The position numbers and the translations under genes are program-made. Source: Pezicula radicicola (taxonomy: Eukaryota; Ascomycota; Leotiomycetes; Helotiales; Dermateaceae). From it: a stretch of 64,000 nucleotides of DNA. Within the stretch, counting starts at the first letter, position 1. Each line of letters starts with the position of its first letter. The DNA lies in assembly GCA_003008705.1 (NCBI GenBank), contig PDUO01000013.1:516702-580701 (forward strand), read 5' to 3'. Of the stretch, positions 17,001 to 63,505 are shown piece by piece. The notes under the pieces are model-generated. The model did no database searches and was not told the origin of the DNA. It saw nothing but the letters and a program-made list of their open reading frames with translations.

Positions 17001-19499
17001 CTACGCTTGGCCTATCGACTGCTGCTGCGCCATCCCATTCCAAATATTGAAATACTCCAAATCATCCAACTCTTCAAAAGCCAACGGCGTTCCAGACGAC
17101 TGGCCTGCTTCATCAACGCCACCAATGCCACCGAAGGTAAAGCGACCTCCTCCACCACTCCCACCGCCAACACACTCCTCAGCCGGCATACTCAAATTAC
17201 TACGCGAAGCCGCCAGACCTCCGAATACACCTCTAGCAATCTCCTTGGTCTCCCGTTCAGTCCTCCGACTAGTCTGCCACACCTCACCAAAAGCTTTTAA
17301 ACACCCTAATCCCAATCGAATCCTATCTCTAGTGGCATTCCATTCAACGCCTTGCAAAACATAACAACAAGCTGATAACTGAGCAAGGATACTGAGGGTT
17401 ATGGTGCAGAGACCGAGGGGCGAGTGGAAGAGGATGGGTGAAGGGAGTGCATACAGGGAGATGGCGGCGTCGGCTGCGTCGAGGGTCTTTTTGGTGTGCA
17501 TCCAATAGGTTTGCGAGTCTTGGGTTGAGATGGTGCGTTTTGGAGGTGGGGGTGCGCAAAAGGATATTTGCTGTGGGTGTTAGGATGGGATTAAGTTGAT
17601 GGAGTGAAGACTAACTTACCTCAATTGGCGAGTGGTAAAGACGAGAGAGAGGACGGTGAAGGTACACTTGGAGACTGCTATGATCAGTATTTCCATTATC
17701 GAAGGGAGTACACTACAGCTTTAGAGAGGAAAGGAGGGTGCTTACCATTGAACTAGGCCATGCGCATGAAAAAGGAGCTCATCGACCTCCTCATTCTTGT
17801 CAACGATTCCTCGCTTTTCTGGCGGCAAGTGAAGCTGCCAGTTTACCAGCATAGCGTCAGCATTAGCCACAGCGAGTTCAAGTTCAGCGCCGCGCAGATT
17901 GTCTAAAAAGAGCATCGCTCCCGTAATTCGTGTCAAGTCTATTAGGTATGTAAATGAGGAGAATACTGGCGTTTCGTCCTCAAAATCACGCGCGTCATAT
18001 TCTTGCAGGGTACGAGGATGTGGAATGATCTGTTTGGTAGCTTGTTAATTGTATACTTTTTCTGAAGTTCGGATCGTTGCTTTCTTACTCCTTCATAGTC
18101 GTATTCTTCACATGGAAGCTCGACATCGGTCTGCACCGTGTACAGCCTATGCCTCGTCAGTCGATACACCAAGAGGTAAGAAGAGCAGATTCTTCTGATT
18201 TATGGCTTACATGAAAGTAGGAGCCCGTCGAATCGTTGCAAAAGCACCATCGGTATTATAACAACCCCAATATGTTCTTCTCCAGCACTCAGCCAGAACA
18301 GGGTCGCTTTCCATATGGGCAAACGTCCTGGAGTTCAGTCCAATTTCAAGGGCTAGATATATCGCTCTATCAAGAGTAAGGCGCGCATGATCCATCTCAT
18401 CTCCAGCGTGGAGTGCAATGGCTGTGATAAGCAACGTTTGAACAGTGAAGCCATTAGGAGGTAAATTTGGCATTTCTATCTGTTGTAAAGCACTTTCCCG
18501 GAAACCCGAGGAAGAGATCTCAGGAGCATAGACCGAACCAATCCATCGCATCGCTGGAAGCAAATTTTTCAAAGATTCTGGATCGGATTCGAGTCGACTC
18601 ATGAAATAATGGCGAGGTAATAGAAAAGGATGCGACTTGTGGAAGAATCTGCACCTCTATCAGCGACATTGCCTCGAAGATGCATATTTGATTCTTACGT
18701 ATAGTAAAGGTCGAGTAATCTTCTCGTGCTCGTAGGTCTATTACTTAATCTAGAAGACTGGCTTCCTGGACTGGCTGAACCTTCTGATGACGGTCCAGTG
18801 TAGGACTCGCTGGAAGCGCCAACAGTAGGGTTTGGACGACGGTAAGAAGAACTTATGTTTCCTGTGCTGCTTGGATTACGATGTAGTGCTTCTCGCATTG
18901 CTGCCCTTTTTTGCGGAGCATTTCGATCTCTCAGTCCTCGTCTGGACTTTGCATAAAAACAAGGCTTGCCATCATCTTGACATCTTGCACAGGCTCTGGG
19001 ACAGGTTAGGACAGGTCTAGGAAACGACTCGAAACAGAACAACTCACGGAGTTTCAGCACCGCACTGTCCAGGACTTTGATATTAGCATTGATACCTTCA
19101 GAAAGTTTTAAAGAGGGGCCTGAGATATGAGTGGTTTGGGACTAGAGACACAAATTTTCGATACTTAAAACCATCTCGAAGGCAAGCTGCCGAACCTGGA
19201 AACAGTATTCACAGGGGAAAATGGAAACAGATTTACGAACTTTTACATGCCTGCTGCGACACTACGAATTATTAGCCCATGATTGGTACCGTCGGGGTGA
19301 TACTCACCGGTACACAAGCCAACGAGACCCTGATTCCTCCACGTATTCCTGAGTCCTGACTTTGAGCTGTCGAAGGAGCTTGCCCAGCTTCGCCCTGGTT
19401 CACACTAGGAGATCTCATAGTCGGCGCAAAGTCGAAGAACATTTGCACATTATTCTCATTATCCTGCGGCGATGACCTCCTTAATTCCGAACTTTCCAT
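17001..19499 (-). CDS. Zn2Cys6 fungal transcription factor, nine exons
   Basis: Exons: 19499-19308, 19261-19241, 19064-19048, 18995-18699, 18648-18211, 18146-18089, 18029-17746, 17677-17620 and 17570-17001. All introns are GT-AG with consistent phase, giving 644 residues. The zinc cluster is spelled CX2CX6CX6CX2CX6C (ACVPCRSRHVKC, then CGAETPACARCQ and PCFYAK) and is split over four exons, two of them only 21 and 17 bases long. The middle homology region follows: LLDLYYTFFHKSHPFLLPR, ECWRRTYWGCYNTDG and LVQCSLQVYLHRPLSRLYH. A Gly-rich stretch lies near the C-terminus (GGGSGGGGRFTFGG). DNA-binding nuclear regulator; target pathway not recognisable. ATG 19499 is the first Met before the cluster in the only open frame. 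Intron 2 is a candidate introner (19065-19240). Confidence 0.85.
19065..19240 (-). repeat. Introner-like intron, copy 1 (in Zn2Cys6 gene)
   Basis: A 176-base intron between the Lys and Cys codons of the zinc cluster (phase 0). It begins GTTCGTAAATC and ends with an ATGCTAATATC...AAGTCCT...CAG block. Both ends, and an inner stretch (AGAT-GGTTT...TTTGTGTCT), resemble the introns at 28864-29019 and 62094-62260. It is the most divergent of the three copies and lies in the sense orientation. Confidence 0.6.
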
Positions 19500-22035
19500 T
19501 CCAGTACCTTCAGGGGAGCAAAGCGATCGTTTACTAGACAATTAACAGACAAGATTTGAAAAGTGATTTGTAATCCTCGGATGAATATATCAAAAACAAA
19601 GAAACGACTTCTGAAATACAAAGGGTAAGGAGATGACTTTTATGGCTAGAAGGCAATCTAGTTAGTGTTGGGGCAATCACCCAAAATCTCGTGCACGTAT
19701 GTCTCGACTCGACCATGAGTACGTATATTAATACACCCTTCAAATACTAGCCATAACTCGTAGCATTTTATGGGTTGGGGTAGCCCTGCTCCCGCTAAAG
19801 TCAGCATTTTCCAAAACTGGAAATGGTGGGCAAAATATTAGTGCTTGTAGGTAATCAGAGTTTCTATTCTTAAGAAGGCAGAGCTTCTAACGAACCTCTT
19901 GTGGAATCATGGAATGTCCAGCGCAAAGACGCGCTCGCTTACCTCTGGAGCCTTCGATTTGCTCTTATATTTGCTATTTGGAGACTAGCTTCGGTGATTA
20001 ATCAGCTGGGTCTATTACTTGCCTTAAGGCCGTATTTGCTTCTCCCAGTGCGGAGGAGTTACAGACAAGAAATGATCGGTGTAGATTGGTTGAGTTCAAG
20101 ATTGAAGTTCTGCAAGGCTGATATCATATCCTATCCACATCCAATTCTACTGTCTTATTTCATCCCAATATCTTTCTTTTGTTCGCAGTCCCTAGTTACC
20201 GTACTACATTTTAGCGTGCTGATTTGGATTGAGATTACAAAGGACATCCTGAGGCCCCGAGCAGAAAGACGTAAGAGACGCTTTGGACCAAACCCCGCGC
20301 ATTGATCAGATCCCGATAACGACCGGAATCTAAGCGACTGGCCCTGTTATAAGGCTTAGAACGTGGAATCGTGTCACCATTAAATTGTCAGCCGGGTGCA
20401 TGAGCGGACAACCATGATTTTGCCTTGTACAAGTACAACATTGTTTTCAAGACCCTTCATTCTGATTGCAGGTCCGTAATCACTTGCCCAGGATGCTTCG
20501 CCAACAAGACACATTATACACATGCCGCATCACTTATTCCCAGGTCATTTCCGCGGACGAGTAATAACTAGCTGAATACCTGTCGTGAAGTTCTTGAAAC
20601 AGCCTCTGTATCTTCAAGCTGGATAACATCAAAGGACGAGCAAAGAAAGGTAAGTGTCTCCAGTAGGCTCTAAAACGGTATGATTTCCCCTAGTTACTAC
20701 CTAGATCAATATTAAAATAGAAAAATATAATTAGGAGTCCAGAATTAACTCTATGTACCACCATTGACGTGATCGATCTAGCAGCCGCAACGCCAATTTG
20801 TGATCCTCTAAGGCGCCTTCACTAGATTGAATGACCCAACCACCAGGTAGATACTAGTGGTTTTCATGCGAACAAATCTCTAATACGTCCAAGGAGAACA
20901 GAATTTTCAGGCAACGATATTACCACAAATGAAACTGAATCCCAGTAGTAATAGGGGGAAAAAAGAACTTCACCAATTCTTGTCTCTACCCATTCAGAGG
21001 CCATAGAGAGGGTGCATTTCAAATACCATACGAAGTGCATTCTAGACTCCTGATTAATTATGCTCATAATTTAATAATAAGTTCGCAAACTGCATGGAAG
21101 AGTTGGGGTACCAGTACCAACTGCAGCCGGAAAGATGCATCCGCCGTTGGGCATGTCCTTCAAAACGGCTGTGTTTAGCGGGGCAAAAGAATTAGAGAAG
21201 AGAACTTAGACCGCCTGAAAATGCCTGCAACGGCAGATGGGTCTGAAAGAATTGGACTGGAGTCCCTGAATTACGGCGGAAGAGCGGTCAATAATACATA
21301 CACTGGTGGTATATATGACACTGGGAGTAAATCGGACTCGTCGGGGCGAGAATAGCGTGCGGTAAGATGCTTACTCACTGGGCCAGTCAGTCCACTGGAA
21401 TCATTATCATTGCCATCATAACGGCATTGTTCTTGGTAATGACCTCAGCTGCTGCTGCAAGTCGCTGATGGTCTCTGGAGTCCAAGCCATCGTGCGCACG
21501 CGTGCGGACGCGTGCGGACATTCCTAGATCGGCACATCCGAAGGCTGAGGCGACGCTGAGTCCAATGAGAGGTATAAAAGGTAAGCTACACTTGGCTCAG
21601 TCAGCGTAGCCTTGTGTCTTGTGGATGTGAGGATGTGAGGGAGGATGGCAACTTGGCTGATGAATGGCTGAATATCTGAGACATACGGTACAGCAGTCTG
21701 GAGGATTACACGAAAGCTGCATCGTCAGCCACCAAAGCCAACAGCGGCAACGCTAAACCTTCTCGTACGAAGTCCACCACTCCCTGCTTTATGCTTAAAA
21801 TTCTGTCTACCGTGGGGTCCAAACTGGAACGTCATAAAGAAGGTAGAGGCACTGGAGGTGTGTACGTAGCTCCTGAAGTGAGTCTCTGGATGAAATGTCA
21901 AAAATAAGGACGAAAAGAGGCTGAAATATCAGCTGGCCTATCATACGTCCGTAGGTAAGGGGGTGCCTAGGTACTGACTGTACTGTGGGGTGGTATCTGG
22001 TAGGCTCACCCTAACCCTAGTACTGTAACTAGGTA
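19500..22035. other. 2.5-kb intergenic region upstream of transposon
   Basis: No gene I can support. A hydrophobic 134-codon frame at 19901-20305 has no recognised domain. Near 21480-21515 there is a short GC-rich tandem (GCGGACGCGT twice). A CCAAT at about 21562 and a TATAAAAG at about 21573 look like a core promoter without a clear gene behind it; see findings. Confidence 0.4.
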
Positions 22036-22072
22036 CTATCCCCCCCCCTTATTAATGGTTATTTAGTGGGCT
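22036..22072 (+). repeat. Left terminal inverted repeat
   Basis: 37 bases, CTAT followed by nine C, then TTATTAATGGTTATTTAGTG and GGCT. Matches the reverse complement of 23578-23614 exactly. Confidence 0.9.
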
Positions 22073-22228
22073 TGTGGGTCGGGTAGTACCAGGGTCTATA
22101 GCCAATTAGAATAGTTCCATCTATGCTAGATTTCATAATTTTATACGGGAATTACCATGGTTTTGCATTACGTGTCCTCTTCTATGCCGGCAGAAAAGTA
22201 TACGCCTATAGGCCCATCTGCTTACCCC

Positions 22229-22282
22229 TATATTCGACCATATATTCGACTAGATTCGACGACATATTCGACGACATATTCG
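22229..22282 (+). repeat. Subterminal ATATTCGAC short tandem repeats
   Basis: Five spaced copies of (AT)ATTCGAC within about 55 bases, between the left inverted repeat and the transposase. Subterminal arrays like this serve as transposase-binding sites in some Tc1/mariner elements; that role here is inference. Confidence 0.55.
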
Positions 22283-22305
22283 ACCACTTTTGAAGCTATT
22301 CAGAG

Positions 22306-23460
22306 ATGGATATTCGACTATTGCTTAATCCCTTACCAGAATCACCTTTGCCATCACCTCCAAGGCCACAGACTCCCCTAAATCGAATATATGCACCAGA
22401 AACTACTCGTACAGACCGAATTAGAATCAGGGCAGCACTTGACTGGGCAACACCAAGGAAGATTCGTCGGAAATATAGCTATACTCTAAAGCAAATCGAC
22501 TTAGCTATACATCGTCAAACGCCACAGAGGAAGGGGAGATGTGGTCCAAAGCCGAAAATCAAGGCGATAAAGAGGAAGGAGATGGTCGACTGGCTTCTAG
22601 CCTCACCTTCACACCGACACGTATCCTATTTACATCTTCCACAATATGCGCCAGAGCTTGGGCTTCAAGGTATTGGTGTACAGGCTATTCAGACTACCTT
22701 TTCGAATGAAGGATATGGCCGACGGGTTGCAAAGCGCAAGGGATTTTCGGACGACCCAGCTATTATGAGATTTCGTGTTCGGTTTACTGAAGAAGGCCTA
22801 ACTTGGTTACCTGAAAGGCTACGACGACAGGTGTTTTCGGACGAAGTCTGGGTATATGGAGGAGCTTTTATACAGTCGTTTATAACACGTTTAATTGAAG
22901 GCGAAAGGGAGGATATACTTCGAGATACATATACGCCAGGTTGTGTCTAACACAAATATTCAAAGAGGCCGGCATGGATGTTTCATGGTACAATTTGCAA
23001 TGGCAAGAAAGGCCCTGCAGTCTTCTGGGAGAAGGAATGGGGATCGATGGATTCAGCAAAGTATGANAATATTATTTTATCTCGAATTCANGCTTGGTTT
23101 AAAGGAGAAAGAGATCAAGGGATTCGACTAGTCTGGCAGCATGATGGAGCTTCTTGCCACCGATCCTTTGAAACCACAGATAACCTATATCGACGAAACC
23201 TTCCTACCATCGAATGGCCTCCCTATTCTCCCGATTTAAACTTGATTGAACACGTATGGGCTTGGATGAAGAGGTATATACAAACGTATTATTTTAGTNT
23301 CTATTATGACGCTTCGAAGATTGAATTAGAGACACTTCGGGCTATTGTTTGGGAGGCTTGGGAGGCTGTACCAGAGGCCTTTATTAAGAGCCTCTTTGAT
23401 TCTTGGTATGATAGATGTCAAGCTGTGATTGATGCCGAGGGAGGCCCTATAAAATACTAG
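22306..23460 (+). pseudogene. DD34E transposase with one in-frame stop
   Basis: One reading frame of about 384 codons runs from ATG 22306 to TAG 23460, broken only by TAA at 22948-22950. The N-terminal part is basic with a helix-turn-helix-like region (KIRRKYSYTLKQIDLAIHR and QTPQRKGRCGPKPKIKA). The catalytic triad is visible: D in VFSDEVWVYGG, D in VWQHDGASCH, and E in SPDLNLIEHVWAW, with 34 residues between the second D and the E, the DD34E spacing of Tc1-like enzymes. The stop is most simply a CAA-to-TAA change. Apart from the stop and the three N bases, the frame looks recent. The C-terminal half alone would lack DNA binding, so this copy is presumably non-autonomous. Confidence 0.85.
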
Positions 23461-23577
23461 TATTATGAAGACACTTGTCATTTCTATGCATTCTGAATTA
23501 GTGAGCGGTGAGGTGTGTGGTGGCCACATATGGTATATCTTCCCCCTTGCTATATACCCGGTAATACGACTCTTGGC

Positions 23578-23614
23578 AGCCCACTAAATAACCATTAATA
23601 AGGGGGGGGGATAG
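23578..23614 (-). repeat. Right terminal inverted repeat
   Basis: Exact reverse complement of 22036-22072, followed by TA. Confidence 0.9.
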
Positions 23615-23666
23615 TACATACCTAGAATAGCTCTTTAGGCGAGTGATTGCCCATCAACCCAACTCC

Positions 23667-23810
23667 ACGAAGGTGCTAGGCACGCTAGCTAGGGCATTGC
23701 ACACCGCTTTAGTAGGGATTCGCTAACATGCACTGGAAAAGTGCCTGTAGCATAATTTTGCTGGGCGGAAAAGAAGGCGGTGTGCAATAACTTAGCCCTG
23801 GCACCTTCGT
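23667..23810. repeat. 144-bp imperfect palindrome (MITE-like hairpin)
   Basis: The outer arms ACGAAGGTGC...TTGCACACCGC (23667-23707) and their inverted partner (23777-23810) pair with few mismatches. The inner arms GCTAACATGCACT and AGTGCCTGTAGC (about 23722-23750) pair around a short loop (GGAAA), so nearly the whole stretch could fold as one hairpin. It lies between the transposon and PEX2. A small TIR element (MITE) fits best; a structured RNA is less likely. Confidence 0.6.
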
Positions 23811-23935
23811 ACTGCACCTTTCCAACACATGACACTGACTTTGGACCTCGGTTGTCTTAACTCCAACCTCAACAATCGGCACATCTGGTGTGAAGGACCA
23901 GCTTCAACCTCACCGTCGTAGCTAATGTTACCTCA

Positions 23936-25327
23936 ATGACATCTACCAACTTTGCTCTCGCCCAGCAGCGACTGGCAGAGCGTCGGCACGCAAGAGAAGT
24001 CGAAGCCCAGTCTCGGATCGCCGCGCAACAAGAAGCCTCCCGGGCTACGGATCAGCTCAGGCGACTGCCCTTCCCTCTGGGACGTATTGGACAAGCCGGC
24101 GTCACAACATGGGATAGAATCAGTGGAAGAGAAGGCACAAGGCCGGCTTTCAGGGTTGGCCAAGTTGATGCCGAGTTGCTAGACGAAGAATTGCTCGAGC
24201 TGCTCAAGGGGCAGGTTGGGGAGGCTCTGAAATATTATGGCACTCATATTCAAGATGACTGGTCGGCAGAGATCATGCTCGCCTTGAGGGCAGTTCTTTT
24301 CAAGCTTACTATATGGGATCATGATGCAACGTATGGTGCTGCATTGCAAAATCTGAAGTACACGGATGCGAGGAACAAAAGCCCGGTCTTGGTGTCGCCG
24401 TCAAAACTGCAGAAGTCGCTGTATGGCCTCTTTACAGTTGGAGGCAAATATGCTTGGACTAAGTGGGAGAGTTGGCTGGTTGATAACGATAATGGTTACG
24501 ATGAGCCAAGTCCTGCGTTACGCAGACTCTCTCGACTATCAGATGCTGTTTCGACATTCCATTCTACTGCCGCTTTCGCATCTTTTCTTGTCTTTCTTGT
24601 CAACGGCAGGTATCGCACCTTGCTCGATAGGATATTGAGGCTGCGATTAGCACCACCGACGAGTCAAGTGAGCCGAGAAGTTTCATTTGAATATCTGAAC
24701 AGGCAACTTGTCTGGCATGCCTTTACAGAATTTCTGTTGTTTGTTCTTCCATTAGTTGGAATTAGTAGGTGGAGGAGATGGCTGGCACGAGCTTGGCGAA
24801 AAACAAAATCAGTAATACGGAGTGGTGGTGACGAAGAGGATACTGCGAAATCAGGAGAATATGCCTTTTTGCCAGAGCGAACATGTGCAATCTGCTACCA
24901 AGACCAAAACTCCGCATCAACCGAAGCTGAGGTTATCGCGGCTTCTGGGGTGGTTGGCTCCTCACAAACAGACATTACGAATCCCTACGAGACTATACCA
25001 TGTGGGTGTGTTTACTGTTTTGTATGCTTGGCACAGAGATTGGAGGCCGAGGAAGGGGAGGGTTGGACATGCTTGAGGTGCGGAGAAGAAGTCAAGGAGT
25101 GTAAGCCGTGGAACGGAGATGTTCTTGAGGAGGTTGTGAAAACACCAAGTCACACAAAGACAGTTGTATTCTCGGAGGCTCCCACGGCTATGGCTGAGGT
25201 TGGGCCACGGCCACACGAAGAAAAGGGGGTCGATGTAAAGCGGGAAGATGAGGATAGCCCTTCAGAAACTGGAGGATCAGAAACTTACGAGGAGGACGAA
25301 GAAGGAGACTTGATAGACAGCGAGTAA
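23936..25327 (+). CDS. PEX2: Peroxin-2, RING ubiquitin ligase of peroxisome import
   Basis: Intronless, 463 residues. The N-terminal Pex2/Pex12 membrane region spans about residues 60-300: LEYLN-like segments, LSDAVSTFHSTAAFASFLVF, VWHAFTEFLLFVLPLVGISR. The C-terminal RING occupies residues 317-382: CAICYQDQN, IPCGCVYCFVCLAQR, WTCLRCGEEV. It has an unusual Cys where many RINGs have His (CGCVYC), as in other fungal Pex2 proteins. Pex2, Pex10 and Pex12 form the peroxisomal-membrane ligase that monoubiquitinates the import receptor Pex5. Residues about 400-463 are acidic and disordered, a fungal extension. ATG 23936 follows a short leader; the transposon and hairpin occupy the upstream promoter region. 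Confidence 0.88.
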   Translation: MTSTNFALAQQRLAERRHAREVEAQSRIAAQQEASRATDQLRRLPFPLGRIGQAGVTTWDRISGREGTRPAFRVGQVDAELLDEELLELLKGQVGEALKYYGTHIQDDWSAEIMLALRAVLFKLTIWDHDATYGAALQNLKYTDARNKSPVLVSPSKLQKSLYGLFTVGGKYAWTKWESWLVDNDNGYDEPSPALRRLSRLSDAVSTFHSTAAFASFLVFLVNGRYRTLLDRILRLRLAPPTSQVSREVSFEYLNRQLVWHAFTEFLLFVLPLVGISRWRRWLARAWRKTKSVIRSGGDEEDTAKSGEYAFLPERTCAICYQDQNSASTEAEVIAASGVVGSSQTDITNPYETIPCGCVYCFVCLAQRLEAEEGEGWTCLRCGEEVKECKPWNGDVLEEVVKTPSHTKTVVFSEAPTAMAEVGPRPHEEKGVDVKREDEDSPSETGGSETYEEDEEGDLIDSE

Positions 25328-26176
25328 AAAGGCAAGTGTCAATTATGAGCGATGTGAGCAGCAGACAGATGTTAAGGGTATCCTGCTGTAGTCGATTATG
25401 CAGTACACTGCCCAGTCGAGACGTGCAGAAAGTTTGTACAATGCGTATGTCTGCCCTACGATGCTCATTTTCTGATTCGATACTAATTGCGATTACAGAT
25501 CTGTGTGATTCAGGAGGCTGCAAACAGGTAGGCATTAAAAGCAAGTATCTTAATCCAGGTAAAAAACAAAAATGGAAAACAATAAAAAGAAGAGAAAGAA
25601 AGTTTTAAACTAGACTTCATGTGATAGTGACTTGAAATACACTCTCATTTACGGTAAGAATAACTTAGTAAAAGCTCTCCCAGTCAGTTCAGCTTGTAGG
25701 AGTAAATGGCACGCACACCTTAGTACCACTACATGTGTATGTAGATCGCACTACTAGCAAATAACCCTCTTTCTCAAACAGTTTTAACGTCCCCATCTGT
25801 TGTTTCCTATATTTATCCCACATCACGCAAGAATATAGAGGGAAAATCTTTCTTGGATAGGAGAGAAAGTTGAGGCTTTGCGCAGTTGTTTTTGTTATGT
25901 ACGATTTTGGGATGCGAGTAGTGTGAGTGAAGGTACATGGAAGGTTGCTATTTGACGCATATCGGGGGACAGTTGAATGCAAATGAATAAGCGAGCCGAG
26001 CTAGACTTTCAACGAGTTGCTCGGATCCAAGATGACCGACTAAATGGCATGTTGTCGCAGACTCAGTGAGTGGTACATAATCTGTATGGGAGATATACAG
26101 ATTGCAGAACTTGACTACAACTCGCTATTTACCTTTCCTTTCACGTTCCAATCAAGTATCAACCCAAAATTGTACC
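25328..26176. other. convergent intergenic region
   Basis: About 850 bases between convergent PEX2 and aldehyde dehydrogenase genes; no gene supported. Confidence 0.5.
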
Positions 26177-27711
26177 TTAGTCCTTGAAAGTAACAGTCTT
26201 AGTCCTAACCCATTCATCAATGCCACAGGAACCAAATCTTCCATACCCGCTTGCTTTCATACCTACAGGGATTTTCGTTAGTATGTACCAAATATGGACG
26301 AGGTTAAAGACAAGAACTTACCACCGTGTGGCAAAGCAACTTCATCATGGACAGTCATCCCATTGATATGACATGCCCCACTCTCAATACCCTTGGCAAT
26401 CCTCAGACCCCTCCTCAAATCGCTTGTGAAAACCGAGGAACTAAGTCCATATTCCGTATCATTGGCAACTTCAAGCGCCTGTTCCTCGGTACTCACAGTC
26501 ACAATACTCACCGTCGGTCCGAAACTCTCAGTATAGTAAAGGTCCATGTCCTTGGTTGTCCCTTTGATGATCAAAGGTCGCATCTTGGTATCGACATCTT
26601 CGGAGGCCTCATGATCACCGTGGATGACAGAAGCACCTTTGGAAACAGCATCCTTGACTAGTCGTTTATTCTTGGAAACTCCAGCGCTGTTTATTAACAC
26701 TCCAGCGTCGCCGTCTGAAGGAAACATCATGCCAACAGCCTTCTTGAACGCCGTCTCAAATTCAGTGAGGATATTCTCATGGACAATGATGCGCTCGGTA
26801 GACATGCAAATCTGACCACTATGCAAGAAGGCACCAAGAGCACACTCCTTGGCAGCAAGTTCCAAATCTGCATCTTCCCAAACGATCGCTGGTGCCTTTC
26901 CACCGAGTTCCAAAAGAACGGGCTTGAGATGCTTCCCAGCAAGTTCAGCAATGATCTTCCCCACCATTGTCGAACCTGTAAAATTTATCTTTTTAATGAT
27001 GGGTGATTCAATGAGATGTTTCGTTACAGCTGCGGCAGAGGATGGGGCATGTGCAATGAGGTTCAACGCTCCTGGTGGCAGGCCTGCTCGGTGGAAAGAA
27101 GTTGCAATGGCCCAGGAACAGCGAGGTGACAACTCTGGCGCCTTCAGAAGGCAGGTATTTCCTGCAGCCAGCGCATAAGCTATTGCCCTTATGCCAAGGA
27201 TATACGGAGCATTCCAAGGAGCAATAGCCAAAATAACACCATATGGCTCTCTGTAAACCAAAGCGCTAACTCCCTCTTCGCCAGTCTGTGGGATTGACCC
27301 CGCAACAGTAGATATCTTCCCCGCTACATCCCGTATGATGTTGCTGGCCAGATTGAGATTGAAATCTGCCCAATTGGCAGCGCCGCCTGTTTCAGAAACC
27401 ATGTATTCTTTTAATTCGTCACGACGCGAGTCCATGATTTCGGCGGCTTTGAGGAAGATGTCGCGTTTCTTAGGGGGAGGCATGTTACGCCATGAGGGGT
27501 AGGCTTTTGCGCATGAGGAGAGTGCTACATCTGCGTCGGCGACACTTGCAGAGGCGCCGTTGTGAAGGAATTTGCCTGTAGCAGGTGCGTTGACAACGAA
27601 GGTTTCGCTGGTCTTGTGGTCTGCGTTATCAATGAGGAGAGGCACCGTGTAGGTTGTTGCGTCCGAGACGGCTTTCGCAGCACCATTGCCATTGGTAGTT
27701 GATGTAGACAT
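26177..27711 (-). CDS. NAD(P)-dependent aldehyde dehydrogenase (aromatic/salicylaldehyde-type)
   Basis: Two exons, 27711-26322 and 26262-26177, 491 residues. The intron 26263-26321 (GTAAGT...TGTAG) is needed to reach the proper end: VALPHGG then MKASGYGRFG and WVRTKTVTFKD. ALDH signatures: PWNAPYILGIRAIAYALAAG, KINFTGSTMVG (Rossmann loop), LELGGKAP with general base Glu268, and HSGQICMST with nucleophile Cys302, the same numbers as the classical mammalian enzymes. The closest subfamily by style is the vanillin/salicylaldehyde dehydrogenase group, which oxidises aromatic aldehydes to acids; the exact substrate is inference. Cytosolic: no signal peptide. A BTB-like second start is not seen; ATG 27711 fits the usual length. 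Confidence 0.88.
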
Positions 27712-28648
27712 CGTGAGGACCTGCCGTGCCTGTTGAGGAGTTAATAGAACAGAATGGAGCGATAAGGTAGAGCAAAAGAAGTAATGTGAAGAAAGCTAAG
27801 TAGAGAAAAGTCGGAAATCCCCAATGAATATGCAGACGCAGAGGCAGACGCAGATCCTGAAGAGTATTTATGTCAACGACCTTTATTAGCAGTTCGAAGT
27901 TCAAACTAGGCCCCCTCCCTCGCTCCCCCAATACGGTACAGGAAGCTTCCCGTCCCAATCACCCAGTGATCGGTAATCCATTCGTCCTCTGCTGTACTGT
28001 ATTGCTGCGACACAGCAAGCTAGGGAGATGCTGGCTTGGCTTCGGGATGTGGGGGATGGGGTCCCCGGTGGTTTGTCGTCTTGTTCCCACCGCTCCGTAC
28101 AGCATTATGTTAGACTGCTGTGACCAGTGAGGGGGAGAAGACTCGCTTGCCTGCACGGCAATCATGTACGGCTCAGTATGTGGATGTGGCTGAAATTGGC
28201 CGGGACGGGACGGTAGGGTGTCTGGGGTACATAATATGATAGATGGAAGAAAGGAATGTTGAGAGATAGGAGTTCCTGGAGGGGATGAAAAGACAGAGAC
28301 ACACACACACAGAGAGAGAGAGAGAGGAAAGACAAGACTATTTATGTCGCGAGAAAGTCGTGGCCTGACCTGTGGAGAAAGCACAACCGCCTGATGAAGT
28401 TGTATCGGTATATTTACCGGCAACGTCCACTTTGCCCCATAGTCAGATCGCTTTATGATTTAGTGTAATCATTCAATTTATTTTATTTTATTTCCACCAG
28501 CACTTTAAAGCAAGCCCTTATGTTGTTGCTTTATAAATAGACTTAGAGTCGGTACCCTTCCTTTTGAACGTCACCAAGATTTATCATAAACTCATCATAT
28601 ATACAGTACAGTATTTGCAGAATACACATTTTCTTCCTCATCCTTCTC
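27712..28648. other. intergenic with AC/AG microsatellite
   Basis: Aldehyde dehydrogenase promoter and glucanase 3' side. About 28300-28327 is a compound (AC)n(AG)n microsatellite. No gene supported. Confidence 0.55.
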
Positions 28649-30563
<1,915 letters not shown>

Positions 30564-51618: not shown

Positions 51619-51886
51619 CATCGTTATTACTAATAAAAGTGATGATAGAGAACAAGACGGCGCGGTTTTGATGCTGTACGAAAGGCACAGCATAAGCGAA
51701 AGTGACGACACTTGGCTGGTTCGAGGACTAGCGCAGCTCTTTAGTAAGAGCGGAGTTGGCTCACTTTCACTCCGTTCGCCGACGGACTTTTTTCCTCTAC
51801 AACAAACAACTCCTGGCCTTCCCACGCATCTCCATTCCTTTGGGACTTTCGTCCATCTTTTTTCACTCACATGAGTCCGATATACC

Positions 51887-53946: not shown

Positions 53947-54745
53947 ATATTAATGATACCACCAAATGTAAGGATGCATTAGGCAAACTTGCGCTGCGTT
54001 TAGCTCTGTATAATACAATTTGACAGGTTTAACTAACTTGGCACGGACCAAAAACGAGCGATCTTTCTAAAGCGCAAAAAAAATAAAAATAAACTCCAAA
54101 GATTATTCTAAAGTAGTATAAAATATCGCAAATAATTAAAGACTAGTCAAGAAGTTAGAAGCGACCTTGTTGAAGACGACCTCTCATTTTTATGAAAAGA
54201 CCTAAGCGACAGAAATTGATAACTTAAGCGAGTACCAAGGTCAAGAAATAAGTTGTAAATCGACAAGATTATCCTATGCAAGCAAGGCAAGCTCCGGGAG
54301 TAAAGTGAATATGTGGGCCTATTGAAGCGCTTGTTTAAAATCACTGTCTATATATTTGTGGAAAAAAAAGGGGAAGTTGTGTGAAGCGGTCATGTGTTCA
54401 AGTGTTGATCACGTGTTTATTCTCAAATTTTGCCAGACTCTTATGTTGAACCTTCAACAGAAGTAGGTAATTTTCAAACACGTTAAGAGAGCTGATATAC
54501 AAACAACAAGGCTCATCTCGATAGCAAGGCATATCTAGGCAGCGATGTCATACTCGCGCAAAATTCCCCCGACGGAATTGCAGACCCAAAGTCCTCCGAT
54601 CTCCGTCGCAGCAGGTACGCGAACAAAAACAAACAGCACTTGCTTACTATATATGTGCCAGACAATCATTACATCAGCCTGTCCTCCTCATCTGCTTCTC
54701 ACTCTCTTTAAAGAACCACCAGTTCATCTTTCACCGACAAAAACA
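53947..54745. other. intergenic, MFS promoter
   Basis: About 800 bases between the regulator and the transporter. AT-rich A-tracts at about 54070-54130; no gene. Confidence 0.5.
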
Positions 54746-56898
54746 ATGAACAGTCAAAACGATGCTTCTACCAATGCTTCCCTGGTAGATGATGGCAAAC
54801 CAGAACACTCACGCAATAACGAACCAGGCACAAATGAAATCACAACCGCAGCAGAGGAAAAAGTGTCGGATGAGGAACTTCTTAGTGGTTCAAAATTGTA
54901 TATTGTGTTACTTGCTGTTACTATTGTTGCATACTTGACTACTCTTGATAGTTCTATTGTTGCTACTGTCAGTTTCTGACTCTCTCTCAATTCTTTTATT
55001 TCTTCATGCTCCGTACTGGTTGCTAATTGGAACTAGGCAATACCTCATATCACCAATCAATTCCATTCTCTTCCCGATGTTGGTTGGTATGGCTCTGCAT
55101 ACCTGATTTCAACGTACGTACCCATTTTCCGTTTTCTGCTTGCACTAATCCCTCAACATTTATTGATCTAATATGGACAACAGTTGCGCATTTCAACCTT
55201 CGACTGGAAAGATATACGCGAATTATTCTCTCAAGGTACCTAAGCTTTTCTTGCATATTCTCCAAGTGTCTTTCTTAATGTGCTAATTTTTTGCCATAAA
55301 AATAGTACACATACATGTCATTCCTCGCAGTCTTCGAACTCGGATCCCTTATTTGCGGTGTAGCTCAATCATCAAACATGCTAATCATAGGACGAGCAAT
55401 CTCTGGAATAGGAGGGTCGGGAATGACGAATGGAGCTTTAACTATTCTTGCAACTGTTGCTGCGAAGGAGAAACAACCAAGTTTGTTATCCCCTATTTTA
55501 CATACACTTATCTCTTTCAGAAGACAAATTCACTAATGGTTTTTGAATCTCTGTAGTGCTGATAGCGTTTTGTATGTCTATTGCGATGTTGGGCGTTGTT
55601 TCTGGTCCGCTGTTAGGTGGAGTTATAACCGAGTATTCATCATGGCGGTGGTGTGAGTTGAATCCAACATTAGAAACATCTCAGTAAATGAAAACTGATA
55701 AACTCCATTAGGTTTCTTCATCAATCTTCCAGCTGGAAGTGTAACAGTGATCCTTCTCTTCTTCAGCCATATACCAAACAAAAAGAACAACAACATCGAA
55801 ACTAAATCAAGCTTCAAGAGCTCACTCAATCGTCTCGATCCAATCGGTTTCGTCCTTTTTGCACCAACATGCGTCATGTTGCTCCTCGCTCTCGAATGGG
55901 GTGGCACAACAAATTACGCTTGGAACTCAGCTACAGTCATTGGACTTTTCTGTGGTGCTGGTGGCATGTTAATTGTTTTTCTGCTCTGGGAATATAAACG
56001 TGGTGATACGGCTATGATACCGCTTACTATGCTCCGCAAAAGAATAGTCTATTGCAGCTGTCTAACAGGCGGCACGTTCTTTGGGGCTTTACAGACTTTC
56101 TCCTATTATATGCCGATATGGTTTCAGACTGTGCAGAATGCTAGTCCGTCGATGAGTGGTGTTGATTATATACCCTCGATAGGAAGCATGATCATTTCTT
56201 CAATGATAACAGGGGCCTTGAGTAAGCAAGCTACTCCCTATCTATCTCTCTTCCACATCCTGATACATCTACTAACAAGCCATATCAAGTCTCCAAAATA
56301 GGCCGCTATACACCATTCGCAGTACTCGGAAGCATAATAGCATCTATCGGAACTGGACTCCTCACAACACTTCTCCCAAGCTCAACTCGCGCAACTTGGA
56401 TAGGCTACCAGATCTTAGCAGGAGCAGGTCGAGGCATGGTAATGCAACAACCAATAACAGCCGTCCAACAATTTCTACCACGATCCCAAGTCGCGGTTGG
56501 AACCACATTGATCATCTTCTCGCAATACTTTGGCGGGGCTCTGATTATCGCTTTCGCGCAGACTATCTTTTCTAATTCGTTGGGTCCAGCTTTGAAGACT
56601 TGGGCTCCGAGTGTTAGTAAGGAGTTGGTGGTGAGTGTTGGTGCTACGGCTGTGAGAACCGTGGTTACTGCTGAGGAGTTGCCTGGTGTTTTGAGGGCTT
56701 ATAATCAGGCTTTGATGCATACTTTGGTGAGTTTTCTGCTTGATGCCTCATGAGCTTTTTTTATGGAGTTGTGACTGATGATGGTTGTAGTATTTGGGAA
56801 CTGCTTTTACAGTTGTTGGCTTCTGTACGAGTTGGGGTTTGGGATGGGGGAGTATTAAGAAGAAGGAAGCTGATACGGAAACACAAGTCAAAGCTTAA
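54746..56898 (+). CDS. MFS multidrug-type exporter (14-TM, DHA2-like)
   Basis: Eight exons: 54746-54967, 55037-55113, 55184-55235, 55306-55480, 55557-55652, 55712-56221, 56290-56726 and 56791-56898; seven GT-AG introns in phase, 558 residues. The N-terminus is cytosolic and polar (about 45 residues), then [20 protein letters not shown] begins TM1. Conserved fungal DHA motifs: [20 protein letters not shown], then [47 protein letters not shown], followed by [13 protein letters not shown] (antiporter motif C region); GVDYIPS; and [14 protein letters not shown]. Such proton antiporters export toxins, drugs or secondary metabolites across the plasma membrane. An in-frame upstream ATG at 54545 exists, but the added 67 residues look non-coding. 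Confidence 0.88.
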
Positions 56899-57354
56899 GG
56901 AGCTTTACGAACTTCGGCTCCCGGTGAAATTAGAAGAATGGACGGTTTTCCAACTGGTCACTTTGTAGACTGTAGTCATAGTAGATATATGGCCTCTTGT
57001 AAATTAAGAACTTCTTAGCTCAGGCTTTCACTGTAGAATAATCATAATGTTTTGGCAATTCGCTTACCTCTGTCTATATTCTCCTGCAGTGGAAAAAGAT
57101 GGTAGGCAGCTGAGGCAAGAAAATCGAGAACACATTGAGAACTGTAAGCTATAACGGAATACTTATTAATAGGTCAGAGAAAACAGGAGAATAAAGAAGT
57201 GTGCTAGCGATGGAGCACTCAGTTATCTAGCAGAGATATACAACCGCTTGGTAGACAACATTAAATTCTTGCCTTTTTTACTGTAAACAGAGACAAATAG
57301 CAATCGGAGAGAACCATACAGTAATTGCTAGCTAGCCATAGCATGGAATATAGT

Positions 57355-57983
57355 TGTACAATCGGTTCCTGTATTTCTTCGCCACTAAAATATATGCGAA
57401 AAAAGTACTTTTTACTTTAAACTTGAATAGCTTTATAAAAAATAATCTCTCTTATATAAAATTTAAGTATATTATACTTTAAGTATTTGTCTATAGATGC
57501 TTTAAATTTTTAAGGTATATATTAACTATATAAAAAGGTATTTAAGTATTAATAACGAGTATTTTAAGAAAAACAGGGGTAAATTAAGCGAAAATCTAAG
57601 AAAATCAAAAAATTACTACTATTTTAAATTACTATAAATCTCTAAGTAATTAAGATAATAATATAAAAATTAATTCTCTTATAGATATCTACTTAAATTT
57701 TATTATTTATAGGTTTATTAATTTAAAGATAGTTGTTTTTAAGAATTATAGTAAATAAAATAAGAACTTCTTAAATATAAAAATACTATATATAAGAATA
57801 AAAATAAGTCTTTTACTTTCTAGTAGAAATTTATACTAATATATTAATTATAAAATAATTTAACTTAAATTGTTTTTATTTAAAGCTGTTTTATTATATA
57901 TACTCTAGTTAAAAAGTTATAAGTAGTTAAACTAGGGAGAAGGTTTCGCTAAGTGGCGAAGAAATATGGGAACCGATTGTACA
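57355..57983. mobile_element. AT-rich element with 32-bp inverted ends (629 bp)
   Basis: The left end TGTACAATCGGTTCC..TATTTCTTCGCCACT (57355-57386) is matched by the reverse complement of 57952-57983 with two mismatches. The interior (about 57400-57910) is extremely AT-rich, made of short A/T and TTTAA/TATA runs with no coding frame. This fits a non-autonomous or RIP-degraded DNA transposon. No clear target duplication. The ends differ from those of the Tc1-like element at 22036, so it is a separate family. Confidence 0.7.
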
Positions 57984-58088
57984 TAAGTAGCTCTCACGAA
58001 ATGTAAGTATGAACTCCTAGTCGTTCTGGTAGCCCGCACTGCACTTATAGTTATACAAAATCTACCTGTTACAACAAAAGTAGCAAAT

Positions 58089-58320
58089 CAAACGCACAGC
58101 ACGAAGTTTGTTAACAAGCCTCGCTTAGCCTTTTTGTAATATATCTCTGATCTGTCCTGGTATAGCGCATCCCTGATAGTGTTAATCTGTTTATAAAGGA
58201 TGTGGTATTGAGATTCTCTGATCCTCCACCAGCTCTTTGCGTTCTCCTTAGACTTAGCCTCCAGTTGTTAAAATTTCTTTACAGCGCTGGAGCTAGAGCT
58301 AGACTCGGTCTCGGAAAGTG
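58089..58320 (-). pseudogene. fragment of repeat-associated protein (possibly DUF3435-type)
   Basis: A minus-strand frame reads ETESSSSSSAVKKF, a TAA stop, then QLEAKSKENAKSWWRIRESQ and YHILYKQINTIRDALYQDRS, then EIYYKKAKRG. The arginine/aromatic helix spacing recalls the C-terminal helices of fungal repeat-encoded DUF3435-type recombinase proteins. That match is from memory of the family style and is weak. The fragment lies just beyond the AT-rich element, supporting a repeat graveyard here. Confidence 0.25.
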
Positions 58321-58329
58321 CAGCAAGAA

Positions 58330-59002
58330 ACCTAGAGCAGGTTTCTACGAGGAAAGGGTCCTTTAGGAGCGTACACTAAGGTTAGACGTACCGCTCTGCT
58401 GTACATATACCCTTCACAAAATTATATTAGTTCGAGTCACTCGACTTCTTTTATGTGTCTAGCTGCTACTTCTCACCTCGAATCACACAACTGGCTAGAA
58501 TAGCTGATTCAGACTGGCTGATTTTAAGGATACACTTGAATTGCCCAGACCACATTAATGATTGAGAAGATACTGTCCCACCTGACAAACAACATCACTG
58601 TCAACATCCAACGGCTCCCACTACCCCACCATACTAGTAGTGCGTGTAGCATAGCAACTTCCACGAAAGCGGACATCAAGAATTTTTACAGGAAGTTGGA
58701 ATAGTTCGATATTTTTAGCTTTATGCTCCAGTGTCTTCCCAATGTCCTGGAAGCCGTCTAGCGAATTTTTGGTAATAGCGACATTATGTCCGACGGCTTT
58801 TGCTTCCGATAATCTTGCTTTTGGAAGGGTTGTCCAGGTTTTCCGACCGACTTGTATTTCACCCCTTGCAGATCCTGTACCCTCCACGACCTCAAAGATA
58901 TTTAATCACTATAACAAGCACTGCACCAATGCTAGATTCTTCAATGTCTTCATGCTTGGACAGTACTTGCTGATCCCAAAACATTGCTGTGCTCTCGCCT
59001 AC
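58330..59002. other. intergenic, decayed sequence
   Basis: No intact gene. A minus-strand frame at 58621-58887 with GHNVAITKNS-like sequence is at best a scrap of a short-chain dehydrogenase. Confidence 0.35.
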
Positions 59003-59482
59003 TCATCCGACCACTCTCCCAACAAGTCGTCGCAGCATTCCCCCAGTAGCAATATCCACCCAAATGAACTCGTGCAGCATCACAATCCCCCAAAAGTCCA
59101 CTTGGTAGGTTAACTTCCTTGTCTTATGCTGCAACAGTCTCTGGCAGACGAACGCAGCTGGCCAGCCTCCTAGAAACTCGCACAGATGGAGGCGCCTTTC
59201 GTTGACACGCCAACCTCCGGGAATGCGGGAACGAGATTTATCGTGGGTGTACAGGATACATGTCAAGATATTGATGAAGGTGAAGAGAGGGAATATTATA
59301 AAGAGATGGGTGCGAGACACCCTGGCGAGACTGAGAAGTAGTGGGGTGAGGAGGATAAGGATGGATATTGTGGAGGTTGAGGTTAGTCTTGGGGTTCCCA
59401 CGAAACGGGGGTGCGCTGGTCCACCTTTTCGTCTTGATCCAAGAGGCGTCGTGTTGCTACCGGTGAGAGGTGAACGCGGCAT
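59003..59482 (-). CDS. DUF1294 small membrane protein
   Basis: Single exon, 159 residues. After a basic Pro/Arg-rich N-terminus (about 40 residues) come two hydrophobic segments (ISILILLTPLLLSLARV and LFIIFPLFTFINILTCILY), then the DUF1294 signature: YTHDKSRSR, GGWRVNERRLHLCEFLGGWP, AAFVCQRLLQHKTRK, YQVDFWGIVMLHEF. DUF1294 proteins are short membrane proteins found widely in bacteria and in many fungi; function unknown. The strong DKxxAR...P.LHLxxLxGGWPxA match makes this a real gene despite its isolation. A DUF1294 domain normally has about three to four membrane passes, and this copy has the full set. Confidence 0.8.
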   Translation of the reverse strand: MPRSPLTGSNTTPLGSRRKGGPAHPRFVGTPRLTSTSTISILILLTPLLLSLARVSRTHLFIIFPLFTFINILTCILYTHDKSRSRIPGGWRVNERRLHLCEFLGGWPAAFVCQRLLQHKTRKLTYQVDFWGIVMLHEFIWVDIATGGMLRRLVGRVVG

Positions 59483-59594
59483 TGCAATTGCACCAGGCGT
59501 TTGGGAACTACAAGATGTGAGGATTCAGCAGTGGTGCATCATCCTCAAACTGGCAACATCTCGTATCGAAGCTTCGTACGCATCATTGGCAGGT

Positions 59595-59636
59595 TGCTGA
59601 TGCTGATGCTGATGCTGATGCTGATGCTGATGCTGA
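59595..59636 (+). repeat. perfect (TGCTGA)7 microsatellite
   Basis: Seven perfect hexamer units, 42 bases, just upstream of the DUF1294 gene. Confidence 0.95.
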
Positions 59637-61240
59637 TGAGTGGTCGAGGTGAGGCTGAACACAATGGAGCTGAAGCAATGCATGCAGCCTCACAAGTTAA
59701 GTTACTAAATTAGAAAGTCAGAGGGCCTTCTCATTGGCTCCGCAGTTGTTAGCGCCAAAACACCCATGCATGTAACCGTAACTACAACATGCATCTTACC
59801 TCAACGTCTCTCAACGTCCAGCTCTATCGCTATTCTCTCCCCACACTTACGTATCTATCTTGGGTGAATCCTTCAATTTTTCTTCCTTGTTTTGTCTCAA
59901 TTCAAGATAAGACTACTAAATACTACACACTCTGGCCAGCTGCTGACAATGCTCTCGGATTTGCCCTCTCATCCTACTCGATTCGTTCTGCCGTAAGAAT
60001 GCGTTGAAAAGAGATGCATGCGAAGATGGAGGTGGATATTCCTACACAGTGCTTGCGAATATGTGAAATATGGTTTACGTCTCATTGTTACTTGCCTAGG
60101 ACCCAAGATATGACTTTCTTCGGGGGCTACATCATTACACCTTCCTGTCCAAGTTACGTGGCCAAGTCGTTGTTCTAAGAGTATCGCCGCTTGAACTCTT
60201 TACTCACCTCATTCCATTAGAGCGATTCGAAAGCCATCAAGTTTGTCTCTGTTGTTATCAGAACCGAGAGCGTTGAGCTTATCATTCAACCTTGGAAAGC
60301 TACGCTGCCCTGGTCTCTGGTTCGGCCCATGACTAAAATGAACAATAGGTGGAGTTGCAGAGGGAACCCACTTGGCTATACTCAGCGTGGGTTAGTCCTT
60401 GGCACTTCCCGTCTTATCATTCTGTTCAACTTCACGCTTGTTATGATTTATTTCAGTGGCTCAAACGTTCGATTGGGTTCAGAACCTTATGTCTCTGCCA
60501 TTGAAGTCAATTTCAGTAGTGCGACTGAGGACAACCCGCTGGTGGGAATTGATGACATGCTTGTCAGTGCAAGTTTGTCTATCTATCTCTCCCGAGTCAT
60601 CGTTATAAGGTTTGGCTCAAGATAAAGGATGCCCAAGGTATTGCGCCCGTTTATTTCTTCGAATTCTCAAAAGTATATTTTATGTATCAATGGTCGTATA
60701 TGACTTCCTCCAAATCTTGTGTTTGTATTTGTCCCTTGCTCAGAGCAAGATAATTACTTCGGACCTACTAAAAGAAAGGCCTGTGGCAGATTGAATATAT
60801 GGGAAGAGTGTCATGCTGAGCTTTTTGAGGAGCTCAGAAAGGTCGCCAACACCACAGATTGCATTGCGCTGAAGAGTAAACTTCAACTATTTTAGCACAG
60901 AATTGCGCTTGTTCGAGGTTTTATACTCCGCCAAGTTAAATTAACCGGTGCAGCTTCCCTTAGCTCGACTCCTTAGTAACAAGAATAGAGACACTTGGCC
61001 CGATAGGACAGTCTTTCGAGGTAGTCTCATATGTGGTCCTCCCAGCAAGAAAAGCGCTATTGTTATCATGGACTTGGGTTTTCTTGTTTAGTCTAAAGCC
61101 TCGCTGGCTTCCCACAGAATACAATATGACATTATCTATATAATATTTCCCTTTCCCTCTTATCACTCTTCTTCCTTTCGCTCTATCTTCTATTTTTCCA
61201 GTGGGATTTTATTGTCTTCGCGTCCTCGCAATTCATTGCC
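59637..61240. other. intergenic, nothing clear
   Basis: 1.6 kb. Plus-strand frames at 60329-60625 and 60612-60794 lack recognisable domains. The part about 61100-61240 is a pyrimidine-rich leader for the permease. Confidence 0.45.
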
Positions 61241-63505
61241 ATGGCGAACAGACCCGATGACTCGCGCGAAAAAGGACTCCAGAATCCAGAACTACAATTC
61301 ACGCGATCCGGCAGTGATGGCACAAAATCTGTGTCCGTGAACCAGGACGAGAACCTTTCAAAATGGACAAAAGCCGGATGTACTCTTGAATCATTCAAGC
61401 GGAGAGAAGCCACAGGTTCCCCAGATCTCCTGAACAAGATAATGAAATCACGTCGTACGTACTCGATTTCTCGGAGCAGAATTGCCCCTTCCGATCCGAC
61501 TACTCTTTGCTCCCGAAGCATGTTTGAGTAAACTAACTCTGAGGTTTTCACCGTATAGATCTACAGATGATTGCAAGTGGTGGATCAATTGGAGCTGGTT
61601 TCTTTGTGGGATCTGGCAGCGCTCTATTCAAAGGTGTATGTTATGGAAAAGTTTTCATTCCTTGTATATCAATATCTTACATCCGACGCAGGGTCCTGGG
61701 ACACTCTTGATCGATTTTGTAATCATGGGTGTCATGATCTTCAATGTCGGTAAGTACTATCGTTCACAGGCCGAGGAATTAAATGCTTACTTCTTATAGT
61801 TCAAGCGCTTGGAGAGCTTGCTGTTATGTATCCTGTGTCTGGAGGCTTCTACACATTTTCCTCGCGCTTTATCGATCCCGCCTGGGGTTTTGCTATGGGC
61901 TGGAATTATGTTTTCCAGTGGGCAGTCTGCTTACCTCTCGAACTTGTCGTCGCAGGCCTTACAATTGGCTACTGGAATAAGGAGATAAACGTTGCGGTCT
62001 GGATCTCAGTATTCCTTGGCGCACTTATCATTATCAACATTTTTGGTACACTAGGCTACGCAGAAGAAGAGTTTTGGACAAGCGTTATCAAGCGTTCGTA
62101 AACCCGGTTCATTTTTGTCCCCTTGTTGACCGTCTTGGGTGCTATAACACTTCTCAACATTTCCACATTTCTGAGACATGCTTTGCTACTCATAAATCGT
62201 GTCTTATTTCTCCTAGGACTTTCTACAAGAAGTATTGCTAATACCGAAATCCTAAACTAGTTCTTACTGTAATCATATTCATGATCATTTGTTTCGTTTT
62301 TGGTAAGACTTTGTTCTACCTTAGGATAATATCTTTGCTAACGGAGAAACAGTTCTGGGTGGAGGGCCTTCTAAGGGAATTTATAGTGAATACTGGGGTG
62401 CCAGACTCTGGTACGATCCTGGAGCATTTAAAAATGGCTTTCAAGGGTTCTGCTCAGTCTTTGTCACCGCTGCATTTTCTTTCGCGGGAACGGAGCTTGT
62501 CGGCCTAGCCGCAGCTGAGTCCGAAAATCCAGCAAAAGCATTGCCTGGCGCTATTAAGCAAGTCTTTTGGCGTATCACTATGTAAGTTGGATATTAAGTT
62601 GTGCCTTTTTTTAACTCAACTAACCGAATCTCTAGTTTCTACGTAGTTGGCCTTATGTTCATTGGGCTTCTAGTTTCTTCCACAGACAAACGCCTTCTGG
62701 GTGGAGGTGGTATGATCGATGTTAATGCATCACCTTTTGTCATAGTCGCCATCAATGGAGGTATCAAGGGATTCGACCACCTTATAAACGGCATCATTCT
62801 CATGTCCATTATCTCTCTGGGAAATTCCGCAATCTACGGTGGATCACGGACACTTACTGCACTGGCGGACAAGGGCTACGCTCCTAAGGTTTTCTCTTAC
62901 ATTGATAAATCCGGTCGCCCTCTATTCTCTACCATCACTCTATTGGCCTTCGGATGTCTAGCATACATTAGTCTCAGTGCAAGCGGACCTACTGTTTTTG
63001 AGTGGCTACTTGCACTCTCTGGGCTTGCTTCACTCTTCACCTGGGCTTCGATCTGCTTGGCCCATATTAGATTCCGCGCTGCTTGGAAAGCCCATGACCG
63101 TTCTTTGGATGACATTCCTTACAAGGCTGCGGGTGGTGTCTATGGTTCATGGTGTGGTCTGATTTTGATTATCCTAGTCATTATTGCACAAGTTAGTTGT
63201 CCCTCTCGTTCGACCGACAATATCCTTTTCTAACAACTTCATAGTTCTACACCGCGCTCTTCCCCCTTGGTAACGATGGAAAGATCGGCACTGCCGAAGA
63301 CTTCTTCAAATCATTCCTTGCAGTTCCAGTCGTTATCATCATGTATATTGTTGGATGGGTGTGGAAACGTAAATCTTGGTGGAGCGTTGATGACATCGAT
63401 ATCGACACTGACCTGAGAGAAGTGGATTGGGACACCATTTACGAGTACAGGGCGCTGATAGCTAGTTACCCTGCTTGGAAGCGCGTTTGGTATTATCTCT
63501 TCTGA
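61241..63505 (+). CDS. APC-superfamily amino-acid permease (YAT type)
   Basis: Eight exons: 61241-61454, 61559-61635, 61692-61749, 61800-62093, 62261-62302, 62353-62581, 62636-63191 and 63245-63505; introns in phase, 576 residues. Yeast amino-acid transporter signatures: MIASGGSIGAGFFVGSGSAL (TM1), GELAVMYPVSGGFYTFSSRF, WGFAMGWNYVFQWAVCLPLE, SFAGTELVGLAAAESENPAK, LGNSAIYGGSRTLTALADKG and PLFSTITLLAFGCLAYISLS. About 12 membrane segments and a cytosolic C-tail ending in VWYYLF. Function: proton-driven uptake of amino acids at the plasma membrane; specificity not readable. Intron 4 (167 bases) is a candidate introner; most other introns here are 50-56 bases. An aromatic-rich tail of this kind is conserved in fungal general amino-acid permeases. 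Confidence 0.9.
62094..62260 (+). repeat. Introner-like intron, copy 3 (in amino-acid permease)
   Basis: A 167-base phase-1 intron joining VIK to LLTVIIF. It begins GTTCGTAAACCCGG and ends GTATTGCTAATACCGAAATC then CTAAACTAG. It is end-to-end similar to the exo-glucanase intron 28864-29019 and shares both ends with 19065-19240. The sequence GCTAAT near the 3' end would be the branch site in all three. Confidence 0.75.

Follow-up and report, generated by a model that had tools for sequence, protein, structure and literature searches.

We identified three introns in the 64-kb window (the whole stretch of Pezicula radicicola DNA that was analysed) which are similar to each other and interrupt unrelated genes. 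Copy 1 (19065..19240, minus strand, 176 nt) lies in a gene for a Zn2Cys6 regulator, copy 2 (28864..29019, minus strand, 156 nt) in an exo-1,3-beta-glucanase gene and copy 3 (62094..62260, plus strand, 167 nt) in an amino-acid permease gene. Their coordinates and lengths, the GTTCGTAAA starts and the related ends are as given in the original prediction. A branch-like site GCTAAT, read from the sequence and putatively functional, is found at 19082..19087 (minus) in copy 1, at 28883..28888 (minus) in copy 2 and at 62237..62242 (plus) in copy 3. A sequence-only profile trained on 37 copies of the family, including copies 2 and 3 and excluding copy 1, matched at 19066-19240 (minus), 28868-29019 (minus) and 62094-62257 (plus), with scores of 35.9 bits for copy 1 (E 2.2e-10), 110.5 bits for copy 2 and 133 bits for copy 3. 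The scores of copies 2 and 3 are obtained by construction because both belong to the training set, whereas the full-length match of copy 1 is independent because this copy was outside it. The prediction that the three introns are homologous and form one family is thus supported even for the untrained copy, and the match marks copy 1 as a genuine, very divergent family member. As a DNA query against its own genome copy 1 found only itself. Rfam matched nothing within the 64-kb window.

Splicing out copy 1 gives back the third cysteine of the Zn2Cys6 cluster and yields a Zn_clus domain that spans the junction (E 1.8e-10; Pfam search with the spliced peptide, for which the adjoining ordinary introns were likewise removed by eye). 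The spliced peptide of the copy 2 host aligned across the junction to 1cz1, a solved exo-1,3-beta-glucanase (E 6.3e-35), and this junction was ungapped in 114 of the 117 homologues spanning it. The junction of copy 3 is crossed by an AA_permease domain (E 1.2e-37; Pfam, spliced peptide).

A search of the genome (61,044,626 bases, 152 contigs) with the introns, proposed as a check on the original prediction, revealed many further copies in unrelated genes at splice junctions. With copy 2 as DNA query at least 41 matches including itself were obtained (E <= 2.2e-10), with copy 3 among them and copy 1 absent; one copy was split into two pieces among these matches. The 38 other places were taken with 600 bases on either side, and in 37 of them the similarity had the same two end points and the flanks were unrelated; in the 38th (L026) a nested insert interrupts the copy, yet both ends are present. 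Pattern searches gave 43 matches for the 3' end (control 1), 31 for the 5' end (control 0) and 18 for both ends with a gap (control 0). One of the latter 18, C16:60197 (L049), had no profile match and was dropped as false. In a search with the family consensus, the best 40 of 59 candidates were scored. The resulting catalogue comprises at least 66 places on 31 contigs, all of which match the profile (weakest E 1e-4). A looser 3' pattern gave 90 matches (control 5), and 11 of the 36 further places found in this way match the profile with E < 1e-6. GTTCGT occurs at most 226 nt upstream in 13 of these 36 places, compared to none on the opposite strand and one in the next 226 nt, and the interior of the further places bearing it is often no longer alignable. 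Including such old degenerate copies the total is perhaps 80-90, which is a lower bound, as are all counts from the DNA searches. The hundreds of copies genome-wide that had been expected were therefore not found: this extrapolation overshoots because the window is far richer than the genome average. At a density of 66 copies per 61 Mb, 0.07 copies would be expected in 64 kb compared to the three observed, and the window is exceptionally rich in introner copies. Copies are also clustered along the genome, with 10 gaps of less than 50 kb where 3.4 are expected.

The family consensus reads GTTCGTAAAT...GCTAATACCGAAGTCCTGAACAG, and the 60 copies measured are 96-323 nt long (median 166). The 5' splice site, the branch-like CTAA and the 3' AG are all internal to a typical copy. 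The donor, GTTCGT in 49 of 60 copies, differs from the usual fungal donor. Conservation was measured in 56 copies with lengths of 120-185 nt: it reaches 98-100% for CTAA and 86-100% for the first twelve positions, and it is mixed (63-98%) between branch site and acceptor. Distance to the consensus ranges from 10 to 39% (median 16.6%), and pairwise identity is 72% on average and 93.4% for the best pair. A tree of 56 copies contains a clade of eight (support 100/99), to which copy 3 belongs. Compared with L010, one of its members, this clade shows 86-100% identity; other matches reach at most 80% over most of L010, and short partial matches outside the clade up to 93%. The copies are of different ages: the eight-copy clade is young and the rest older, some being reduced to little beyond the two ends. 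Changes from the consensus comprise 330 C to T and 233 G to A versus 257 and 184 in the reverse directions, and RIP-like mutation is not claimed.

In copy 1 and the oldest members the resemblance to the family is largely confined to the ends, as might be seen if unrelated ordinary introns had become alike through splicing constraints. This explanation is contradicted by the extended similarity that introns share across unrelated genes, with 79-90% identity to the consensus across most of the length in the 40 scored copies and 86-100% identity to L010 within the young clade. In addition, an ordinary 52-nt intron adjoining copy 1, searched inside a 66-base query, found only itself in the genome, although this shorter query is a less sensitive control. 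We consider a resemblance due to splicing constraints extremely improbable.

To judge their behaviour as introns in silico, 60 of 69 profile matches were subjected to a frame test, nine being excluded because of unclear or weak ends. A copy passed if at least 90 nt were open on both sides after GT..AG removal. This was the case for 44 of 60 copies, compared to 44 of 120 after displacement of the 3' end by one base, and unspliced read-through was possible in 9 of 60. Phases 1, 0 and 2 are represented by 21, 15 and 8 of the passing copies, respectively. Twenty spliced peptides picked by us out of these 44 were submitted to Pfam, and in 16 a domain extends over the junction (for L014 below Pfam's own cut-off). 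In one of the other four the domain ends 11 residues before the junction, and three are without a family. Ten further peptides gave a domain over the junction in eight cases, two below the cut-off. The hosts fall in different Pfam families. Sixteen of the 60 copies failed the frame test, and of these L016, L035, L069 and copy 1 are genic by Pfam; others of the sixteen, such as L012, L040 and L051, gave no clear assignment, nor did L057 and L058 from the set-aside matches. The copies that could be placed are genic and in sense orientation. The ends of the element are its predicted splice sites, and excision would restore the protein; the exon bases around the copies are not duplicated.

Uninterrupted sites were found in paralogues of two hosts. 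For an aldehyde dehydrogenase host, 13 of 82 paralogous matches are uninterrupted and stop-free with at least 10 residues on both sides (closest 76%), and by the same measure 13 of 45 in-genome matches of the copy 3 permease (closest 64%). Judged from these paralogues within the genome, the introns look gained. The homologues of the copy 2 host span 92-216 residues, which partly reflects the search itself, and many of them are probably raw reading frames from contigs, which would imply uninterrupted sites there as well. Introners are defined as homologous introns in unrelated genes, located at splice junctions and carrying their own splice signals. The three introns of the window are very probably copies of one introner-like family, a spliceosomal-type intron of ~166 nt multiplied into many Leotiomycete genes. 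The view that the introns are related and their hosts are not, which had suggested an introner-like family in the original prediction, agrees with the sense orientation, the positions at splice junctions in different genes and the uninterrupted paralogues of two hosts.

The copies are presumably spliced out in the cell and may have spread via the excised RNA. The simplest route would be reverse splicing into another transcript, followed by reverse transcription and recombination into a gene. We infer an RNA route because the searches revealed no mark of a transposon and placed no copy outside genes. In 60 copies the upstream and downstream exons share no 3-6 nt repeat such as a target-site duplication would leave, and repeats that include an intron end are no more frequent than in shuffles. 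Transposon marks are detectable in this genome, as shown by a different element, a MITE that is nested with a TA duplication inside introners L026 and L060 (by eye) and whose arm was matched 435 times genome-wide (control 0). The 31 5'-end matches revealed no longer relative: compared by hand with the catalogue positions, all lie inside catalogued copies of at most 323 nt.

Transposase-driven DNA transposition has been proposed for many algal introners, and the family could likewise be a miniature DNA transposon with chance splice sites that a transposase mobilises in trans. The clustering of the copies, the lineage-dependent target bases described below and a weak inverted similarity of the consensus ends (GTTC..CGGT versus ACCG..GAAC) are in line with this. 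The ends pair in 81.6% of cells, although this pairing was read off the consensus itself, for which reason slid versions remain at or below 42%; with shuffled partners 82.2% pair, so that covariation is absent. The duplex of the consensus ends was not above shuffled sequence (p 0.11), the own ends of 59 copies showed no excess pairing over shuffled ones (mean z -0.03) and a looser 4-bp end-pairing test gave p 0.056. Near-terminal pairing (GTTC/GAAC, CGGT/ACCG), an idea derived from the NTIRE of Xylariales, is unsupported, given the absence of covariation and the chance-level pairing. Since target-site duplications are found in none of 60 copies, the ends are no more complementary than shuffled sequence, no longer element with this 5' end is among the 31 matches and the real TA-duplicating MITE of the same genome looks quite different, we regard a DNA transposon as improbable.

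A stable fold is a property of introners and not part of what defines them. Folding, which had been suggested for copies 2 and 3 together with the original prediction, did not reveal one: RNAalifold gave no pairs for a conserved fold, and for single copies the mean z was -0.37, with 4 of 52 copies below -2. The lack of a stable fold, the unusual donor and the sixteen copies that failed the frame test count against the reading as an introner-like family.

Introner-like elements of Dothideomycetes were reportedly described by van der Burgt in 2012. Introners are known in Pezizomycotina (PMC4457414, PMC9860276, PMC3443670), and those of Dothideomycetes are, in the accessible parts of the reports, related sense introns in many unrelated genes which have their own splice signals and decay to ordinary introns, with hundreds of near-identical copies (PMC4457414, PMC3443670) and a stable RNA secondary structure that is given as typical of fungal introner-like elements (PMC3443670). 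Compared by description with these partial accounts, the present family is similar in its sense introns at many unrelated genic sites, its own splice signals and its decay, and differs in its Leotiomycete host, its fewer and more divergent copies, the lack of a stable fold and the predominance of GTTCGT. According to the accessible text of Gozashti 2022, Pezizomycotina contain families without TIRs or TSDs that apparently insert directly, and ascomycete introners form an outlier group without transposon marks (PMC9860276). The present family resembles these in its seamless insertion without TSD. The [D1,2] sister stwintrons of Xylariales, in the available portions of the two papers, are proliferating introns that appear seamlessly at new positions, in which a nested intron splits the donor after its first base and near-terminal elements of 10 nt (NTIRE) are complementary (PMC8469720, PMC12403724). 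They are comparable as fungal introns that multiply seamlessly; unlike what those portions describe, no nested intron was seen by eye and NTIRE pairing is unsupported in our family. In the consensus, to which this inspection was confined, the sole AG before T (CTTAG|TTCTCC) yields no usable donor. One host protein, encoded by the gene that carries L060, has its best named matches in Helotiales, at 61% in Coleophoma crateriformis and 59% in Tricladium, and its best unnamed match at 63%; judged from this one protein, the host is most likely a Leotiomycete with no close relative in the collection searched. No introner report from Leotiomycetes was found in the openly licensed literature, supplements aside. 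We therefore describe a seamless ascomycete-type introner-like family, which is of a known kind and apparently new for Leotiomycetes. The origin of new spliceosomal introns is a long-standing question, and the family shows one way in which genomes gain introns.

The exon bases in front of the insertion point depend on the lineage of the element. C is present at position -1 in 6 of 8 young-clade copies compared to 3 of 52 others (Fisher 4e-5), and AGC precedes 5 of 8 compared to 0 of 52 (Fisher 1e-5). Positions -2 and -1 track the tree (p 0.002 and <0.001; 1000 shuffles of the site bases) and do so weakly without the young clade (p 0.019 and 0.038), whereas position -3 is below significance (p 0.086) and -6 to -4 and +1 to +6 carry no tree signal. 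These figures come from few copies, and the pattern was spotted before testing, among 12 positions. Because the host exons lie in unrelated genes, the tree-linked bases reflect either how the element inserts or which copies are retained. Plain reverse splicing does not predict them, and they count against that route. A tentative reading, which we hold to be rather unlikely though less so than DNA transposition, is that insertion is non-random, each element lineage preferring its own 2-3 upstream exon bases (AGC|Y in the youngest), and that besides the spliceosome some sequence carried along by the element, perhaps a leftover of the exon of the source gene, guides the choice of target. Either 2-3 bases from the exon ahead of the source copy would stay on the mobile intermediate, or repair would copy at such a short match, and bursts would inherit the preference. 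The enrichment of C and AGC in the young clade and the restriction of the tree signal to the bases next to the intron fit this guidance by short homology; the small number of copies, the post hoc choice of positions and the result at -3 weaken it, no source copy was identified, and selection for splice-site context could contribute. The accessible text of Gozashti 2022 contains no mention of lineage-dependent target bases (PMC9860276), and this is the part which specialists would want followed. With its mixed-age copies, the MITE as a control and the lineage-linked targets, the introner-like family offers a system for separating reverse splicing, DNA transposition and short-homology insertion, because the three routes predict differently. 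At the opposite end of the intron, the young clade shows AACTAG in six of its eight copies and TACTAG and TAAAAG in one each.

Introner copies are clustered in the genome of P. radicicola. Gaps of less than 50 kb between neighbouring copies occurred 10 times, compared to 3.4 expected (p 0.001), and contigs C25 and C76 carry 6 and 7 copies, compared to 1.3 and 2.0 expected, respectively. At genomic locus L066, three introner matches are found within approximately 1 kb (positions 512-653, 1001-1131 and 1371-1535 of the locus), the first of which is weak in the profile search (E 8e-5). The three matches apparently share one gene.

Base composition around the insertion point was analyzed for 52 insertion sites of copies outside the young clade, the eight-copy subfamily that includes window copy 3. 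The fifth exon base after the insertion point (+5) is C in 26 of these sites (chi-square 21.9), position +1 is T in an equal number (26/52), and G is present at position -2 in only one of the 52. Introns at five further loci (L105, L101, L082, L107 and L091) start with GTTCGTAT or GTACGTATTC and have the 3' end of the introner family, with an unrelated interior; these introns perhaps represent an older introner subfamily.

Some introner copies themselves contain inserts. The copies at loci L026 and L060 each harbor a MITE that is flanked by a TA duplication and has the arm sequence CCGTACGAATTGGTTTATAAGAGAT. With up to three mismatches allowed, a genome search for this arm gave 435 hits (control 0). 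The copy at locus L061 is split by another insert, recognized by eye, with inverted ends CGTAGGCGAGC...GCTCGCCTACG (approximately 1060-1205 of the locus, minus strand).

Two pairs of inverted arms are present in the window. The pair at 22021-23629 (52 nt, 90% complementary) encloses reading frames 22294-22950 and 22951-23460, which by impression resemble a broken transposase of the Tc1/mariner type; unknown bases occur in the latter frame. The pair at 57355-57983 (32 nt, 94% complementary, spacing 565 nt) is a possible MITE.
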